Positions 2,640 to 33,699 of a stretch of 64,000 nucleotides of DNA are shown here, one piece after another (position 1 is the first letter of the stretch; each line of letters opens with the position of its first letter). Location of the stretch: positions 2,108,001-2,172,000 of the forward strand of contig CP099850.1 in the NCBI GenBank assembly GCA_030062745.1, in the 5' to 3' direction. This DNA is from Capitulum mitella. Taxonomy: Eukaryota > Arthropoda > Thecostraca > Pollicipedomorpha > Pollicipedidae. The translations under genes were made by a program, and so were the position numbers. Under the pieces are notes generated by a model, which was given only the letters and a program-made list of their open reading frames with translations, did not search any database and had not been told where the DNA came from.

Positions 2640-3210
2640 GACACAGGGCGTGAGGCTGAAAAAGGAAAGAAAGGCTTACTAGCTATTTTTCTTTTAACAA
2701 TTATATTAAAACATAAATTCCTAATACAAATTCCTACATATAAGCTGACATTAGGTCACACGGTGTTTTCCGTTTGCTTCTGACTGTCCTGGCTTTTCTG
2801 ACTGGGACAGGACACTTCCGGGGCAGGTGCAGAGGCAGCCATGAGCAAACGAAGAAAATGCAATCTTGGATCAGACCATGGAGCAAACGGGTGGTGTACA
2901 CATCGGTTTATTATGTCAGATACCCAGAAAAACACCGCTGCTTCTATTCTGCGGCATGGCAGGAGCCATAAATCAGCCTCATCAACAGATGTGCATCGTC
3001 GGATAAGCGCGTTCCAGGCAAATGTCCTCCCAGCTGACCCAGACGGCTCGGGGGCATGTGCGTGTTTCGGCCGTTTCCAGACATGGCGACAACGCACGTA
3101 AAATGCACAACATTCTCCGCGCTGGAGTAGTCATAACACACCGCCGTGCCACTTCCACAATACCTTACAAACGAAAACATGTGCCGCTGCGAAGAAAGGT
3201 GCGTGTGCAT
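2640..3210. other. Gene-free stretch next to BEL/Pao remnant
   Basis: Several short overlapping open frames but no recognisable domain. If the BEL/Pao element were intact its integrase would lie here on the minus strand, but I see no HHCC or DDE-like pattern. Confidence 0.4.
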
Positions 3211-10500: not shown

Positions 10501-11739
10501 TCACACGAGCGTGAAGTTGGTGTTGCCGCACCCCTTCGGCGAGACGTAGAACTTGTCGACGTGGACCGGGCGGCGAGGGCACCAGGCGGCCGGCTCGCGC
10601 AGCAACGAGCGGAACGCCAGACGGAACTGCTTGCTCATCAGGCAGTAGAGCAGGAAATTGACGGCCGAGTTGATGAGCGCCAGGATGTCGAGCAGTTCGC
10701 CGACGTGCTGGTAGCAGGTGCGGAAGAAGCGATCCTGCAGGATGCCCGAGAGCAGCGCCAGGATCCCCTGCGGGAACTCGGTCAGCAGGAAGAGCAGCAG
10801 CACGGCCACCAGCATGCGGGTGGTGCGGTCCGTCTGGCGCGTGCCCTTCAGCAGGTGGTGGTCGGCGTTGGCCGTCTTGGGGCAGCTGCTCAGCAGCCGC
10901 TTCTTGCGCCGCTTCGTCTCCAGCAGGACCCCGATCAGCCGCACCGAGAAGTAGGTCAGCGCCAAGCAAGGCGCCAGCTTGATGAGCACCGAGTAGAGCC
11001 AGAAGTTGGCCCGGTTCAGCAGGCCGTGGTGGCGCCGGCCGATCTCGCTGATGTCGATCGAGTAGAGGACGTCGTCGCCGCCGGCTGGCTGGCTGTGCAC
11101 GGCGAACGTGAAATAGGAAGGGATGCAGATGATGGGAGAGGCAATGTAGATGCCTATGATGACGGCCGTGGTCCGCCTCATGTTGCAAAAACGTACAGCC
11201 ACGTCCGGCCTCACAATCGACAGATAGCGCCACATCGCCAGCATGACCGTCATGAAGATGGACACCGTGTGGAAGACCTGGGCGAAGTGAGCGTGAAAGA
11301 GGACGTAGATAGCTGCCCAGTGGGAGAAGATATCGACCGCTTCATTGATATAGTGCTGGAAGGCGAACGAAATGTACTCGAGCATGACAGCCATATCGGC
11401 CACTGCCAGGCCGGTCAGGATGACATTCGTCGGCGACACCATGTCTTTCCGCATCAGGACTACGATGTTGAGCACGTTGGCGACGAATCCGAAGATGCAG
11501 ACAACAAGGGCGAGATAGCCGTGAAGCGGCCGGTACGTGTCCCGCAGCCAGCGCACCCCCTCGCCGCAGATGTCGGCGCTCTGGGTTGTCGCCGTGTCGC
11601 CCAGGTCGTCGAACTCGCCGCTTCGGTTGGTGAACGCCTCCCAGTCGCCGAGCGTCAGGTTCAGCCGCTGCAGCATGATGTTGAGGAACGCCTGGGCGTC
11701 CGTCCTCACCTCCGTGTTCATCGACATGTCTAACAGCAT
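10501..11739 (-). CDS. Rhodopsin-family GPCR, myosuppressin/DMSR-type neuropeptide receptor
   Basis: One uninterrupted 412-codon frame, ending TGA at 10501. It encodes a seven-helix plasma-membrane receptor. TM1 lies near residues 73-95 with GFVANVLNIVVL; TM2 near 105-128 with LAVADM; TM3 ends in WRY (170-172) in place of DRY; TM4 near 190-212; TM5 near 245-270; TM6 near 308-332 with FLLTEFPQGI; TM7 near 345-368 with NSAVNFLLY in place of NPxxY, followed by helix 8 (SKQFRLAFRSLL). The FLLTEFPQGI and NSAVNFLLYCxMS blocks are typical of arthropod myosuppressin receptors and nematode DMSR receptors, which bind FMRFamide-related peptides; the ligand is inferred. N-glycosylation sites are at N27 and N38. 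I chose the first ATG at 11739; two later in-frame Met codons (residues 5 and 7) are alternatives. Codon use is much more GC-rich than the surroundings. Confidence 0.92.
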   Translation of the reverse strand: MLLDMSMNTEVRTDAQAFLNIMLQRLNLTLGDWEAFTNRSGEFDDLGDTATTQSADICGEGVRWLRDTYRPLHGYLALVVCIFGFVANVLNIVVLMRKDMVSPTNVILTGLAVADMAVMLEYISFAFQHYINEAVDIFSHWAAIYVLFHAHFAQVFHTVSIFMTVMLAMWRYLSIVRPDVAVRFCNMRRTTAVIIGIYIASPIICIPSYFTFAVHSQPAGGDDVLYSIDISEIGRRHHGLLNRANFWLYSVLIKLAPCLALTYFSVRLIGVLLETKRRKKRLLSSCPKTANADHHLLKGTRQTDRTTRMLVAVLLLFLLTEFPQGILALLSGILQDRFFRTCYQHVGELLDILALINSAVNFLLYCLMSKQFRLAFRSLLREPAAWCPRRPVHVDKFYVSPKGCGNTNFTLV

Positions 11740-11758
11740 CAAGGGTGGCTGTGGCTAT

Positions 11759-26435: not shown

Positions 26436-28649
26436 TCACCTATATTAATACGCGGTTGAAATTTTCAGGTACATCATGCTCGGCTCTCACGCGGTGTGCA
26501 CACAAGCCATCAGCACCAGTAGAAACTGCGCAATCGGGAGCGTGGCGTAGGCCATGTCGCGTTTTTTCGGAAGTTTCCAGGTTCTTTCAAATTCGACAAA
26601 CAAAAAACTACGGTTTCGCCAGGGCCGTATCGCCGGCCAAATCGCCCGCAGGCGGTCGTGCGGCCAAACCGCCAACGAGTCACGGGCAAATTTGGTGTCG
26701 ATCGAAGCGCGTTGCAAAACTGGCACCAACCACATAACAAGATGTTATGTGGTTTTGCTCAAAAATGCCGAAAAATGCCCGGAAATGCCCGAAAATTGCC
26801 GAAAACGTTTCGGCCAATCGTGTTGTCACGTGACCGTAGGTGTCAGCTGACTATCGCCTCGGCGGTGGCATGGCGTCCCCTATTTAGCGCGGTGGAAAGT
26901 GGCTCCGAAAGACAAGTGATTTTTCGCCGTCAGTGTCGCGCGCAACGGCATCCGAGGTGCTTTGATAATGTTCACCGTTCAATTGTGCGTGGAATTCGGG
27001 TGTTTTTCTTGCGGAAAAGTGCAATGACCATTTCAAAAGTCGACTGACAGAAGGTCGTGTCGGTCTGTCCGAGGGCGGTTTTGCCACACGGGAAATGGTC
27101 GGCTACAAGAGGACATATTAAACTCCGAGTGCCTGATGGTGCCACTTTGAACAGACACAGGAGCACGCACGCTGTCTTCTGGTATGCTTTTCGCCGATGA
27201 AATCTCACTGAAAACAGTAGAAAAGTACAATGTTGCATTGGGCCAGTGCGCCACTATGGCGCTACTTGAAATAGGTTGTACAAAATTACCGGGGCGCCGT
27301 GGACAGTTGAAAGTGCTTCTCAGAGACGGAATGGCCAGCAGTGTTTTTTGTGGTGTGCGTTGTGAGGGGTGAAACGTGTTTGAAAGGAATAAAAACGTAC
27401 AACAAAGGTTGTGTTTGCGCCACTTTTGCCCCCGCATGGATAAGGTGTTATATTGAAAAACGCGGGCAAGATGGAGGTGTGAAACCACTTTGGAAAGACA
27501 GAACATGAGGTAAGCTTTATTTTGGCACGCATTTTCGTAGGTTTTCCGTTTTCTTTGGCGATGGCACATACCAGAGGCATAAGCGTAACCAAGGTTCGTA
27601 GACCTCCTCTGTGCAAACTCAAATGCTCATGACGTCATTGGAAACCTACGGGTGCCGTAGGACCGCTTTTCGATGCAATTAGTAAGAAAATGTCTCGAAA
27701 ATATTGCACGCCAATACAGTCAAGTCAGTTTTGGTGCAGTTGTATTTCACTGCTGAATTCTGCGTGGAGACAAGGTTTGTATTTAAGACTCCGCTGTGCA
27801 AACGCAAATGCTCATGACGTGATTGGAAACCATCGGGTGCCGCAGGACCGCTCTTCGATGCAATTGATAGGAAAAGAATGTCTCCAAAACATTGCAGGCC
27901 CATACAATATAATATAGTCGATTTTGGCGCAGCTGTTGAATTTTGCGTCGAATTCGAGGCTTTTTTTCAGAAAAGTGCAGTGGCGAATTCAAAAGTGGAC
28001 TGCAAGAAGGTGGTGTCGGGCTATCCCAGGGTGGTTTTGCGACACGTCAAATCGACAAGAGGCTCAAAGTGCTTCTCAGAAAAAGAACAGCCGGCAGGCT
28101 GTCATTTGGTATGTGTTGTGAGGGGTAAAACGTCCTGGCCGAGGTGTTTCGCGGCCTGCAGGCGGGCCCGGACCCGGCCATAGCTGGCCATTGTTGAACC
28201 TGCTAACAGAGCTCTCGACGCGCGCGGTCGCCGGCGCCGTCCCGGGCCTGGCCGAGGTGGTGCACAACCTGCAGACTGGCCCGACCGAGCCATAGCTGAT
28301 CAGCACAGGGAATCAGCGACATGGGATAATAGACGTAAGAAATGGAGACTGGTGTTGGTATCACATATGGAGACAAGGGAGCTGGGATAACGGCCTGGGA
28401 CAGAGAACCGCGACTGGGGACCAGGGAACAAAACTACGGCCATTTAGATGCGTACCCACTGCAGCGGCGCTCGCAGTCGGCGTATTTGCTGGTGCGTTGC
28501 TCAACCTGTTAACAGAGGTCTTGACGCACGCCGATCCGGGCCTGACCGAGGTGGTGCAATAAAATACCACCGGAGGTTTAATTCTTTTCTTAATTAAAAA
28601 CCAAAGGCGTACTCAACATTGCCGCGGGGACGCGGCATGACCGCGCTAG
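26436..28649 (+). mobile_element. Helitron copy A (non-autonomous)
   Basis: Begins TCACCTATATTAATACGCGG after an A and ends with the 3' hairpin GCCGCGGGGACGCGGC (28621-28636), 13 bases, then CTAG. These are the Helitron 5' TC, subterminal hairpin and CTRR terminus. Copy B starts at the next base. The interior has a 9 bp stem-loop (26730-26752), ATGCCCGGAAATGCCC-type short repeats at 26760-26806, an internal duplicated segment (26985-27095 resembling 27940-28050), and GC-rich ~112 bp repeats at 28138-28262. The long open frames (up to 178 codons, minus) show no Rep or helicase motif and are probably not coding. Confidence 0.9.
26730..26752. repeat. Conserved internal stem-loop of the Helitrons
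   Basis: CCACATAAC and GTTATGTGG form a perfect 9 bp stem. It recurs at 28943-28965 (same AAGAT loop) and at 31150-31170 (loop AAA). The stem is intact in the diverged copy while the loop has changed length. Confidence 0.7.
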
Positions 28650-30856
28650 TCACCTATATTAATACGCGGTTGAAATTTTCAGGTACATCATGCTCGGCTC
28701 TCACGCGGTGTGCACACAAGCCATCAGCACCAGTAGAAACTGCGCAATCGGGAGCGTGGCGTAGGCCATGTCGCGTTTTTCGGAAGTTTCCAGATTCTTT
28801 CAAATTCGACAGACAAAAAACTACGGTTTCGCCAGGGCCGTATCGCCGGCCAAATCGCCCGCAGGCGGTCGTGCGGCCAAACCGCCAACGAGTCACGGGC
28901 AAATTTGGTGTCGATCGAAGCGCGTTGCAAAACTGGCACCAACCACATAACAAGATGTTATGTGGTTTTGCTCAAAAATGCCGAAAAATGCCCGGAAATG
29001 CCCGAAAATTGCCGAAAACGTTTCGGCCAATCGTGTTGTCACGTGACCGTAACTGACTATCGCCTCGGCGGTGGCATGGCGTCCCCTATTTAGCGCGGTG
29101 GAAAGTGGCTCCGAAAGACAAGTGATTTTTCGCCGTCAGTGTCGCGCGCAACGGCATCCGAGGTGCTTTGATAATGTTCACCGTTCAATTGTGCGTGGAA
29201 TTCGGGTGTTTTTCTTGCGGAAAAGTGCAATGACCATTTCAAAAGTCGACTGACAGAAGGTCGTGTCGGTCTGTCCGAGGGCGGTTTTGCCACACGGGAA
29301 ATGGTCGGCTACAAGAGGACATATTAAACTCCGAGTGCCTGATGGTGCCACTTTGAACAGACACAGGAGCACGCACGCTGTCTTCTGGTATGCTTTTCGC
29401 CGATGAAATCTCACTGAAAACAGTAGAAAAGTACAATGTTGCATTGGGCCAGTGCGCCACTATGGCGCTACTTGAAATAGGTTGTACAAAATTACCGGGG
29501 CGCCGTGGACAGTTGAAAGTGCTTCTCAGAGACGGAATGGCCAGCAGTGTTTTTTGTGGTGTGCGTTGTGAGGGGTGAAACGTGTTTGAAAGGAATAAAA
29601 ACGTACAACAAAGGTTGTGTTTGCGCCACTTTTGCCCCCGCATGGATAAGGTGTTATATTGAAAAACGCGGGCAAGATGGAGGTGTGAAACCACTTTGGA
29701 AAGACAGAACATGAGGTAAGCTTTATTTTGGCACGCATTTTCGTAGGTTTTCCGTTTTCTTTGGCGATGGCACATACCAGAGGCATAAGCGTAACCAAGG
29801 TTCGTAGACCTCCTCTGTGCAAACTCAAATGCTCATGACGTCATTGGAAACCTACGGGTGCCGTAGGACCGCTTTTCGATGCAATTAGTAAGAAAATGTC
29901 TCGAAAATATTGCACGCCAATACAGTCAAGTCAGTTTTGGTGCAGTTGTATTTCACTGCTGAATTCTGCGTGGAGACAAGGTTTGTATTTAAGACTCCGC
30001 TGTGCAAACGCAAATGCTCATGACGTGATTGGAAACCATCGGGTGCCGCAGGACCGCTCTTCGATGCAATTGATAGGAAAAGAATGTCTCCAAAACATTG
30101 CAGGCCCATACAATATAATATAGTCGATTTTGGCGCAGCTGTTGAATTTTGCGTCGAATTCGAGGCTTTTTTTTCAGAAAAGTGCAGTGGCGAATTCAAA
30201 AGTGGACTGCAAGAAGGTGGTGTCGGGCTATCCCAGGGTGGTTTTGCGACACGTCAAATCGACAAGAGGCTCAAAGTGCTTCTCAGAAAAAGAACAGCCG
30301 GCAGGCTGTCATTTGGTATGTGTTGTGAGGGGTAAAACGTCCTGGCCGAGGTGTTTCGCGGCCTGCAGGCGGGCCCGGACCCGGCCATAGCTGGCCATTG
30401 TTGAACCTGCTAACAGAGCTCTCGACGCGCGCGGTCGCCGGCGCCGTCCCGGGCCTGGCCGAGGTGGTGCACAACCTGCAGACTGGCCCGACCGAGCCAT
30501 AGCTGATCAGCACAGGGAATCAGCGACATGGGATAATAGACGTAAGAAATGGAGACTGGTGTTGGTATCACATATGGAGACAAGGGAGCTGGGATAACGG
30601 CCTGGGACAGAGAACCGCGACTGGGGACCAGGGAACAAAACTACGGCCATTTAGATGCGTACCCACTGCAGCGGCGCTCGCAGTCGGCGTATTTGCTGGT
30701 GCGTTGCTCAACCTGTTAACAGAGGTCTTGACGCACGCCGATCCGGGCCTGACCGAGGTGGTGCAATAAAATACCACCGGAGGTTTAATTCTTTTCTTAA
30801 TTAAAAACCAAAGGCGTACTCAACATTGCCGCGGGGACGCGGCATGACCGCGCTAG
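28650..30856 (+). mobile_element. Helitron copy B (non-autonomous), tandem to copy A
   Basis: Same ends as copy A, with its terminal hairpin at 30828-30843 and CTAG at 30853-30856. It is nearly identical to copy A along 2.2 kb. Differences I could see include loss of 7 bases near 29050, a one-base shorter T run near 28775, a one-base longer T run near 30173, and single substitutions in the first 200 bases. This level of identity points to very recent duplication or rolling-circle concatemer formation. Confidence 0.9.
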
Positions 30857-31485
30857 TCACCTATATTAATACGCGGTTGAAATTGTTAGGTACATAATGC
30901 TCGGCTCTCAGTGGGTCTGCAGACAAGCCAATTGCACCAGTAGAAACTGCGCAATCGGGAGCGTGGCGTAGGCCATGTCGCGTTTTTCGGAAGTTTTCAG
31001 ATTCTTTCGAATTCGACAAACAAAAAACTACGGTTTCGCCAGGGCCATATCGCCGGCGACATCGCCCGCAGGCGGCCGTGCGGCCAAACCGCCAACGAGT
31101 CACGGACAAATTTGGTGTCGATCGAAGTGCATTGCAAAACTGGTGTCAACCACATAACAAAGTTATGTGGTTTTGCTCAAAAATGCCGAAAAATGCCTGG
31201 AAATGCCCGAAAATTGCCGAAAACGTTTCAGCCAATCGTGTTGTCACGTGACCGTAGGTGTCAGCTGACTATCGCCTCGGCGGTGGCATGGCGTCCCCTA
31301 TTTAGCGCGCTGGAAAGTGGCTCCGAAAGACAAGTGATTTTTCGCCGTCAGTGTCGCACGCAATGGCATCCGAGGTGCTTTGATAATGTTCACCGTTCAA
31401 CTGTGCGTGGAATTCGGGTGTTTTTCTTGCGGAAAAGTGCAGTGACCATTTCAAAATTCGACTGACAGAAGGTGGTGTCGGGCTG

Positions 31486-31884
31486 GGTTAATCCTTTAGA
31501 AGCGTGCGCCATAAACCAAGCACACTGGATGACACATATACGGCGCGCGTGGCAAAAGGAGACGTCAGCTGTTGCGAGAAACAACAACATTATGCACTGG
31601 AGCTCCGGGGTCGTGGATCACCTACTATTCGCTAACCTAACCTAACCTAACCTTACCTTACCTAACCTAACCTAACCTAACGTAACCTAACCTGACCTAA
31701 CCTAACCTAACCTAACCTAACCTACTGTGTAAAACAAGAGCGAACAGTAGGTGATCTACGACCTGGAGCTCCAGTGCATAATGTTGTTGTTTCTCGCAAC
31801 AGCTGACGTCTCCTTTTGCCACGCGCGCCGTATATGTGTCATCCAGTGTGCTTGGTTTATGGCGCACGCTTCTAAAGGATTGCC
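31486..31884. mobile_element. Mutator-like foldback MITE with telomere-repeat loop
   Basis: Two ~145 bp arms, starting GGTTAATCCTTTAGAAGCG on the left and, read in from the right end, GGCAATCCTTTAGAAGCG, are about 98% identical inverted copies. GTCGGGCTG flanks both ends (31477-31485 and 31885-31893), a 9 bp target duplication. Copies A and B have the uninterrupted site (near 27055-27075), confirming insertion. Long inverted arms, G-starting ends and a 9 bp duplication are typical of Mutator-like (MULE) non-autonomous elements. There is no transposase. Confidence 0.85.
31632..31724 (-). repeat. Interstitial telomere repeat (TTAGG)n
   Basis: About 18 units of CCTAA, a few mutated (CTTAC, CGTAA, CTGAC), run through the loop of the hairpin element. 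TTAGG is the ancestral arthropod telomere unit. Confidence 0.9.
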
Positions 31885-32814
31885 GTCGGGCTGTCCGAGG
31901 GCGGTTTTGCCACACGGGAAATGGTCGGCTACAAGAGGACGTATTAAACTCCGAGTGCCAGATGGTGAGCCGAAACCACTTTGAACAGACACAGGAGCAC
32001 GCACGCTGTCTTCTGGTATGCTTTTCGCCGATGAAATCTCACTGAAAACAGTTGAAAAGTACAATGTTGCTTTGGGGCATTGCGCCACTGGCGCTACTTG
32101 AAATAGGTTGTACAAAATTGCCGGTGCGCCATGGACAGCTTAAAGTGCTTTTCAGAGACGGAATGGCCAGCAGTGTTTTTTGTGGTGTGCGTTGTGAGGG
32201 GTGAAACGTGTTCGAAAGGAATAAAAACGTACATCAAAGGTTGTGTTTGCGCCACTTTTGCCCCCGCGTGGATAACGTTATATTTGAAAACGCGTACAAG
32301 ATGGAGTTCTGAAACCACTTTGGAAAGACAGAACATGAGGTAAGCTTTATTTTGGTACGCATTTCCATAGGTTTCCCATTTTCGGTTCAACACAATTTCC
32401 CTCATCCTTCGGAACCACGTCGCGTGTTGCGTGGGTGACATTAGGTTTAAGAAGTCCTGGCTAACACAATAAAGTCGATTTTGGCCATGGCACATAACAG
32501 AGGCATAAGCGTAACCAAGGTTAGAGACTCCTCTGTGCAAATTCAAATGCTCATGACGTCATTGGAAACCTACTTGTGCCTTAGGACCGCTTTTCGATGC
32601 AATTAATAAGAAAAGAATATCTCGAAAACACTGCACGCTAATACAATCAAGTCAGTTTTGGTGCAGTTGTATTTCACTGCTGAATTCTGAGTGGAGACAA
32701 GGTTTGTATTTAAGACTCCGCCGTGCAAACGCAAATGCTCATGACGTCATTGGAAACCAACGGGTGCCGCAGGACCGCTTTTCGATGCAATTGATAAGAA
32801 AAGAATGCTGAAGA

Positions 32815-33126
32815 TTGAACAGAACGGTGCTGACCCCGTCCGACACCGGAGGCCAGGTCACCTTCCGTCGCCGCCAGTTCCCGGTGCGCCTGGGCTTCGC
32901 CATGACGGTGAACAAGGCGCAGGGACAGACCTTCGACATGGTGGGTCTGCACCTGCGCCGTCCAGTGTTCACCCATGGCCAGCTATACGTGGCGCTGTCT
33001 CGTGTTCGCAGGTTTGCAGCTCTACGCGTCAACATCGCCGAGGGCCAGCGGCAGGGTCGCCTGCCGGGCGGCGGCTCATGGTACAACCAGAACGTGGTGT
33101 ATCACGAGCTGCTGCCCATCTACTAA
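32815..33126 (+). pseudogene. Helitron helicase (Pif1-like) C-terminal fragment
   Basis: A ~100-codon frame ending in TAA. It contains FRRRQFPVRLGFAMTVNKAQGQ with the helicase motif TVNKAQGQ at 32905-32928, then RRPVFTHGQLYVALSRVRRF with motif VI (YVALSRVR) at 32986-33009. These are the last conserved motifs of the Pif1-type helicase in Helitron Rep/helicase proteins, where the family has well over 1000 residues. The HUH nuclease and most of the helicase are missing and a stop lies just upstream in frame. The sequence is GC-rich and well preserved, so the parent element was probably active recently. It belongs to copy C. Confidence 0.9.
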
Positions 33127-33600
33127 CGACGTACCCGACGTGGCAGGCATGGGAAGTGTATTTGGCGGTGTTTGGCGGTGTACGACGTGTATAGAATTGT
33201 AATTTATCATATACACTGATATATGTATGCATGCATGCGCTGTAATTTGCATATGTGTTACTGTGCCGTTGCCGGCAGGAATTACGGCATTTCCAGTGTC
33301 TCGCGGTGCATTCGAATGGTATGCATTTCGATGGGTTGGACGTCTTGCGTGATGTGTATGACATAATTCATCGCATATCACTGCGTTGTTTTGTTTCCAT
33401 TCGTGTCCCTGCATATCGTAATGAGTGAATAAATGTTTAACAAAACTGCAGTAGTTTTGCGCAACATGCTACCAAATGATATGGCAGCCCTGTGACATCA
33501 GGTATCCATGAAGGATTCCTTTCGAGCCTTGTAACTGCTATTTATGGACCGATTTTCAAAATTCTTTTCTTAATTAAAAACCAAAGGCGTACTCAACATT
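33127..33600. other. Helitron copy C 3' region
   Basis: Non-coding tail after the helicase stop. It includes a tandem GTGTTTGGCGGTGT at 33162-33180 and an AATAAA at 33430-33435 that could serve as the polyadenylation signal of the autonomous parent. Confidence 0.5.
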
Positions 33601-33699
33601 GCCGCGGGGACGCGGCATGACCGCGCTAGTTAAGTGAACATTAAGGCATAGCACAGGAGTAAGTTTGCAGATATGACCCTACCAAGTTCGAGAAGCTGT

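Follow-up and report, generated by a model that had tools for sequence, protein, structure and literature searches.

Results

The Window Element and Its Insertion Site

The genome of Capitulum mitella harbors hundreds of copies of a short hairpin transposon with an array of the telomere-type repeat CCTAA/TTAGG in its loop. We consider it likely that this family, hereafter called family A, is a non-autonomous hairpin MITE moved by Merlin, whose founder possessed the telomere-type array, and that DNA transposons are the main dispersers of such arrays in the stretch of genome that we sampled.

The copy at the origin of this work lies in the window, i.e., the whole stretch of 64,000 nucleotides analyzed here, which is located within G000:C12; all genome-wide counts given below refer to the complete genome (477 Mb, 16 contigs). 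Direct reading and an inverted-repeat scan delimit a 399-bp hairpin element at positions 31486–31884, whose arms are 99% complementary over 120 nt (31490–31609 with 31762–31881) and continue over 25 nt at 92% (31609–31633 with 31739–31763), in agreement with the original prediction of a 399-bp element with arms of about 145 bp. From the inverted repeats and the comparison of copies, the left arm (terminal inverted repeat) was assigned to 31486–31631 and the right arm to 31739–31884, all features being given on the + strand. The left arm starts with GGTTAATCCTTTAG here and with GGTAATCCTTTAG in most copies; the left end of the window copy reads GGTTAATCC, one base longer than the GGTAATCC of most copies, and the outer end of the right arm reads GGCAATCCTTTAG on the minus strand. 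The telomere-repeat loop, predicted at about 93 bp, was recovered by a tandem repeat scan as a (CTAAC)n array at 31632–31724 (18.6 units, 93% matches), in the orientation found in 29 of the 30 loci chosen by their terminus (see below); it is followed at 31725–31738 by a short non-repeat part of the loop, with TACTGTGTAAAAC as its first letters. When the element is folded as single-stranded DNA, the predicted structure is a single long hairpin with the array left unpaired (−185.9 kcal/mol versus a mean of −42.7 for 100 shuffles; z = −33; no shuffle as good).

The insertion left a 9-bp target-site duplication, GTCGGGCTG, readable on both flanks (31477–31485 and 31885–31893). The element sits in a host repeat that the window contains three times (26436–33630), with another copy on C6. 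Self-comparison of the window indicates that the two further copies in the window run uninterrupted through the site with one 9-mer each, at 27059–27067 (matching ends at 27067 for the left flank and starts at 27059 for the right flank) and at 29265–29273, so that the occupied and the empty sites are both available in the same window, as had been claimed from the letters alone. Each empty site is a single 9-mer, GTCGGTCTG, one base off GTCGGGCTG. At C6:14797256 (L002), the same element occupies the same host repeat, the two loci being 99.7% alike over 1169 bp; since the element is found inside the host-repeat copy on C6 too, it also spreads as a passenger. The original prediction names the host repeat a Helitron; for this putative Helitron, three open frames were submitted and gave no Pfam match. 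Elsewhere in the window, a 417-aa open frame on the minus strand (10504–11754) matches chemoreceptor-type 7TM receptors (PF10324, E 3.6e-33; PF00001, E 1.1e-22).

Family A in the Genome

The ends of family A are of the GGYAATCCTTTAGAAGCG type. Its 20-bp terminus has 370 + 356 genome matches at ≤2 mismatches, versus 0 + 3 for the reversed pattern used as a control, and its loop junction has 193 + 210 at ≤3 mismatches, versus 0. With two ends per element, these 726 terminal matches and 403 junction matches lead to an estimate of about 400 copies. A similarity search, in which 40 of 1049 first-look candidates were scored, provides a lower bound.

In order to sample copies without regard to their loop, we started from the list of exact terminus matches and used its first 30 loci (L009–L038), a choice biased to young copies. 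A CCTAA array (≥3 CCTAA) was present in 29/30, always in one orientation relative to the terminus and never inverted; the exception, L037, is truncated. Among 37 distinct two-ended copies, the duplication is perfect over 9 bp in 26 and over 8 bp in 5; the remaining six comprise two copies with 8 of 9 matching positions, one with 7 of 9, one for which no duplication is present as read (L008), the window copy itself, whose extra base shifts the script, and the composite L013. Swapping partners between copies gave a mean of 0.7 identical 9-mers, self-pairings included. GG was found at both ends of 34/37 copies. The span between ends ranges from 344 to 448 bp, too small for a transposase gene, and family A is, thus, non-coding; short, present in high copy number and provided with inverted ends and a target duplication, it has the features of a MITE. 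The element first noticed in the window is, thus, mobile, as was its claimed nature, and each copy constitutes one interstitial telomere-like tract, which is the seeding of the genome that the original prediction had envisaged. That prediction would have turned to a chance capture if other copies had been missing or had lacked TTAGG; we found hundreds of copies, the array in 29/30 and perfect 9-bp duplications in 26/37. A single capture of the array is ruled out by the copy number and the conservation of the loop.

Telomere-type tracts inside chromosomes could also be footprints of telomerase-mediated repair or of chromosome fusion, the surrounding repeats being incidental, and the parts of PMC8537989 available to us describe such an origin for the interstitial telomeric sequences of vertebrates. 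In family A, however, the array occupies one place in one orientation in 29/30 loci, the copies that contain it are bordered by target duplications, and empty sites are available for the window copy. Together, the fixed position and orientation, the duplications and the empty sites refute this explanation for family A, and we regard it as highly improbable for the arrays in general; at most, telomerase-mediated repair could account for the initial gain of the array in an ancestor.

Variation of the Loop

The arms of family A are nearly identical (median divergence of 1.3% from the majority arm sequence), but the loops vary: the 37 loop strings are all distinct, their lengths are multiples of 5 in 34/37 and a CCTTA variant unit recurs in 28/37, in many of them near the fifth or sixth unit. 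Near-identical arms with variable loops, lengths in fives and a recurring CCTTA indicate that the founder already had the array, whose changes involve whole units.

Several loci depart from the common arrangement. In L039 and L102, the loop contains 6–9 CCTAA units and about 55 bp of non-repeat sequence beside the array, perhaps an older version of the loop. The loop of L024 contains, amid its CCTAA units, an expanded variant, CCAAA, in about ten units. In the composite L062/L013 (about C1:5984350-5985035), two right arms, each followed by an array, precede the left arm, as might result from unequal exchange or from a nested insertion within arrays. Finally, a degenerate array with TTAGGG-like units was seen at positions 2398–2475 of locus L037, beside a module in common with the Merlin locus L117 described below.

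According to our proposal, a hairpin MITE would be moved in trans, most likely by a transposase of the Merlin superfamily; the (CCTAA/TTAGG)n loop array of the founder would be copied at every transposition and would then gain or lose whole 5-bp units, presumably through slippage or unequal exchange. Each insertion would leave a 9-bp (sometimes 8-bp) duplication and add to the interior of a chromosome about 35–140 bp that are mostly telomere-type repeat.

Other Carriers of CCTAA Arrays

Five perfect CCTAA units start at 3044 + 2918 positions of the genome (5962), and the reversed pattern at none. The first 100 start positions correspond to 27 loci at C1:2.54–10.78 Mb, all of which were read and compared, the one at 9162819 as part of L015. 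All 27 lie in dispersed repeats: 10 in family A, 12 in a family D, 2 in a family B and 2 in an array-plus-module type, plus one mixed locus (L092).

Family D copies measure 1.1–1.3 kb, with ends GGTCAACAGTAAG and GGCTAAAGGTAAG, and their pattern was counted 246 + 238 times genome-wide (control 0). Among the nine copies for which both ends were found by script, two have perfect 8-bp duplications, four match at 6–7 of 8 positions and three have none. The left end of family D provides a tie to Merlin, since 273 bp of it match at 73% (E 2e-38) a sequence of the Merlin locus L021 starting 934 bp before the DDE match. Family B (L045 and L049) has arms of about 380 bp and GGTA ends; its 8-bp duplications, GTGCCAGG and GACCTTAC, were identified by eye. 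Its pattern count is 142 + 125 (control 0), to which a copy contributes at most two ends. Paired ends of family B are commonly separated by about 1.7 or about 1.0 kb, which defines two size classes (e.g., C1:10169215-10170928 and C1:3107311-3108324, respectively). In L057 and L061, the array adjoins a module that is also found beside the array of the Merlin L117. Longer arrays (60 perfect bases) occur at 264 + 193 positions; the first 100 listed make up 35 places, 7 of which could be assigned by coordinates (5 to family A, 1 to family D and 1 to the L117 type) and 28 were not assigned.

One has to consider here that CCTAA-like seeds lying in unrelated repeats may have expanded independently by slippage, as microsatellites do, without any link to telomeres. 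Such growth would account for loops that vary in unit steps, for the variant units and the CCAAA run of L024, and for the array borders in family D and in the array-plus-module type, which are ragged and CCTAA-like. It fits less well with a motif that is the telomere unit of arthropods according to the accessible parts of PMC7998251, with the 5962 matches versus none for the reversed pattern (a control restricted to reversed CCTAA) and with the presence of the array in several families, on the sense strand in both Merlin-tied ones. For the origin of the array in families A and B, independent growth is a serious rival; overall, we hold it possible rather than likely.

Merlin Transposases and Their Arrays

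The Merlin transposase domain PF12762 (DDE_Tnp_IS1595) has 36 genome matches at E ≤ 0.001. The locus L117 (G000:C5:16445900-16448300) contains an intact 306-aa frame (PF12762, E 2.5e-21), and a CCTAA-rich stretch of about 500 bp, holding most of the 71 CCTAA of the locus, begins about 15 bp past its stop codon. L117 is the one copy in which an array was read behind an intact Merlin frame, and the ends of this element lie beyond the sequence read. Three repeats of its bases 2242–2394 follow further 3′ at intervals of about 155 bp (C5:16448319, 16448476 and 16448635), like tandem subterminal repeats. In L021, the D-type Merlin, the frame is in pieces; the transposases of L117 and L021 share 58% over 173 residues. 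In both L117 and family D, it is the sense strand that carries CCTAA.

A similarity search with L117 (best 40 of 1241 candidates scored) returned two relatives aligned over all 2401 bases at 95–96%, another over 1–2036, and 23 shorter relatives that match 1–490 and then resume at 1519–1854 up to 2401, with a gap of about 10 bp in most. The array of L117 spans about 1525–2030, so the match of all 23 shorter copies sets in again either where the array starts or within it. As far as the match coordinates tell (letters were seen only for C2:16586290, which has a perfect 60-bp array), this is what would be expected of copies that lost the gene and kept the array in part or whole.

Since an intact-frame Merlin and the Merlin-tied family D also carry CCTAA arrays, it appears that these arrays owe their dispersal in the sampled stretch mainly to DNA transposons. 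The array would most likely stem from an ancestral Merlin that handed it to its non-autonomous derivatives, its length then drifting via slippage; common descent would, on this account, link the arrays of the different families.

In this lineage, Merlin transposons might use the array as a functional module under selection, maintained behind the gene and retained upon gene loss. The array might then recruit telomere proteins or yield a CCUAA-repeat RNA, thereby guiding integration, chromatin or the control of the element, and internal telomere repeats would be largely transposon machinery rather than relics of fusion or repair. We regard this as unlikely.

Merlin or Mutator-Like?

Long arms and 9-bp duplications fit MULE and foldback elements, and the MULE criterion is an 8–11-bp duplication. 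Family A could, thus, be a Mutator-like (MULE/foldback) MITE, the array being an accident of that family, and the original prediction had called for an autonomous Mutator-like partner. The 8–9-bp duplications of family A fit MULEs and Merlin alike and do not discriminate between them. The search for the partner failed: the genome contains one PF10551 match (E ≤ 1e-5) versus 36 Merlin transposase matches, and the 1.5 kb read to the left and to the right of the PF10551 match contain no AATCCTTTAG-type end. Moreover, clean 8-bp duplications (5/37) and GG at both ends (34/37) are as in Merlin, according to the parts of PMC8101967 available to us. We consider a Mutator-like origin quite unlikely.

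The same parts of PMC8101967 define Merlin (an IS1016-like superfamily; Feschotte 2004, cited therein) by 5′-GG ends, terminal inverted repeats of 24–462 bp and target duplications of 8 or 9 bp. Family A resembles it in all three respects, with arms of about 145 bp, 26 copies with 9-bp and 5 with 8-bp duplications out of 37, and GG ends as counted above, and it shares its genome with transposase genes of that superfamily. Unlike an autonomous Merlin, family A has no transposase gene, and we found no Merlin sharing its ends. Near the 36 Merlin matches, we found no autonomous element with GGYAATCCTTTAGAAGCG ends, the Merlin termini being mostly outside the sequence read; a partner bearing exactly the first 16 bases of family A may exist beyond the first 100 matches listed. 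The near-end pattern GGNAATCCTTTAGAB occurs at 7 places (3 of which are mutated family A copies) versus 4 for its control, thus without clear excess; the near-end pattern GGYAATCCTTTAGAAH occurs at 15 places, known by position, versus 0. All 22 near-end places are more than 60 kb from any of the 36 Merlin matches, both lists being complete. When family A and B copies (including L041, L090, L045 and L049) were compared with L117, none of their arms matched it at E ≤ 1e-4.

With three Merlin features present and a partner with the same ends not found, family A is a candidate member of the superfamily. It has the look of a Merlin MITE and probably works like one, and Merlin would be its mover.

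Discussion

Is TTAGG the Telomere Repeat Here?

TTAGG is called the universal telomere unit of arthropods in PMC7998251, as far as its available parts go. We read 24 contig ends: a CCTAA array in telomere orientation is found at one of them, the left end of C10, the left end of C1 reads N, and 22 have no CCTAA array. The opening array of C10 (G000:C10:1-250, L078) includes CCCAA variants. The left end of C10 is likely a chromosome end, and (TTAGG)n would be the telomere repeat of the species analyzed.

Comparison with Known Systems

Interstitial telomere repeats are usually taken as traces of chromosome fusions or of break repair. Here, such repeats are the cargo of DNA transposons, namely family A and at least two further families, one of them an intact-frame Merlin. 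This changes the reading of such tracts in similar genomes and reveals a route by which telomere-type DNA spreads; it also becomes testable whether transposons gain anything from carrying it.

Among the titles and abstract openings listed in our survey of the open-licence literature, none describes a DNA transposon carrying telomere repeats. The fosmid data of PMC7998251, in the parts available to us, do not link transposons and telomeres, and the main text of PMC8101967 contains no word beginning with “telomer”, whereas L117 has a long CCTAA array behind its gene. The interstitial telomeric sequences attributed to double-strand-break repair in the accessible parts of PMC8537989 are also telomere-type tracts inside chromosomes; the tracts reported here differ in that transposons carry them and that target duplications border the insertions.

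A link between mobile elements and telomere repeats is also seen in the telomeric retrotransposons, namely SART/TRAS, HeT-A, the bdelloid Penelope-like elements and MoTeR. These are found at or in telomeres and move by reverse transcription, whereas family A is a DNA transposon that brings telomere-type repeats to internal sites. In structure, family A is alike to MITEs with an internal microsatellite and to foldback elements, which are short, non-coding and present in many copies, with a near-complete palindrome and internal tandem repeats; its internal repeat, however, is telomere-type TTAGG.
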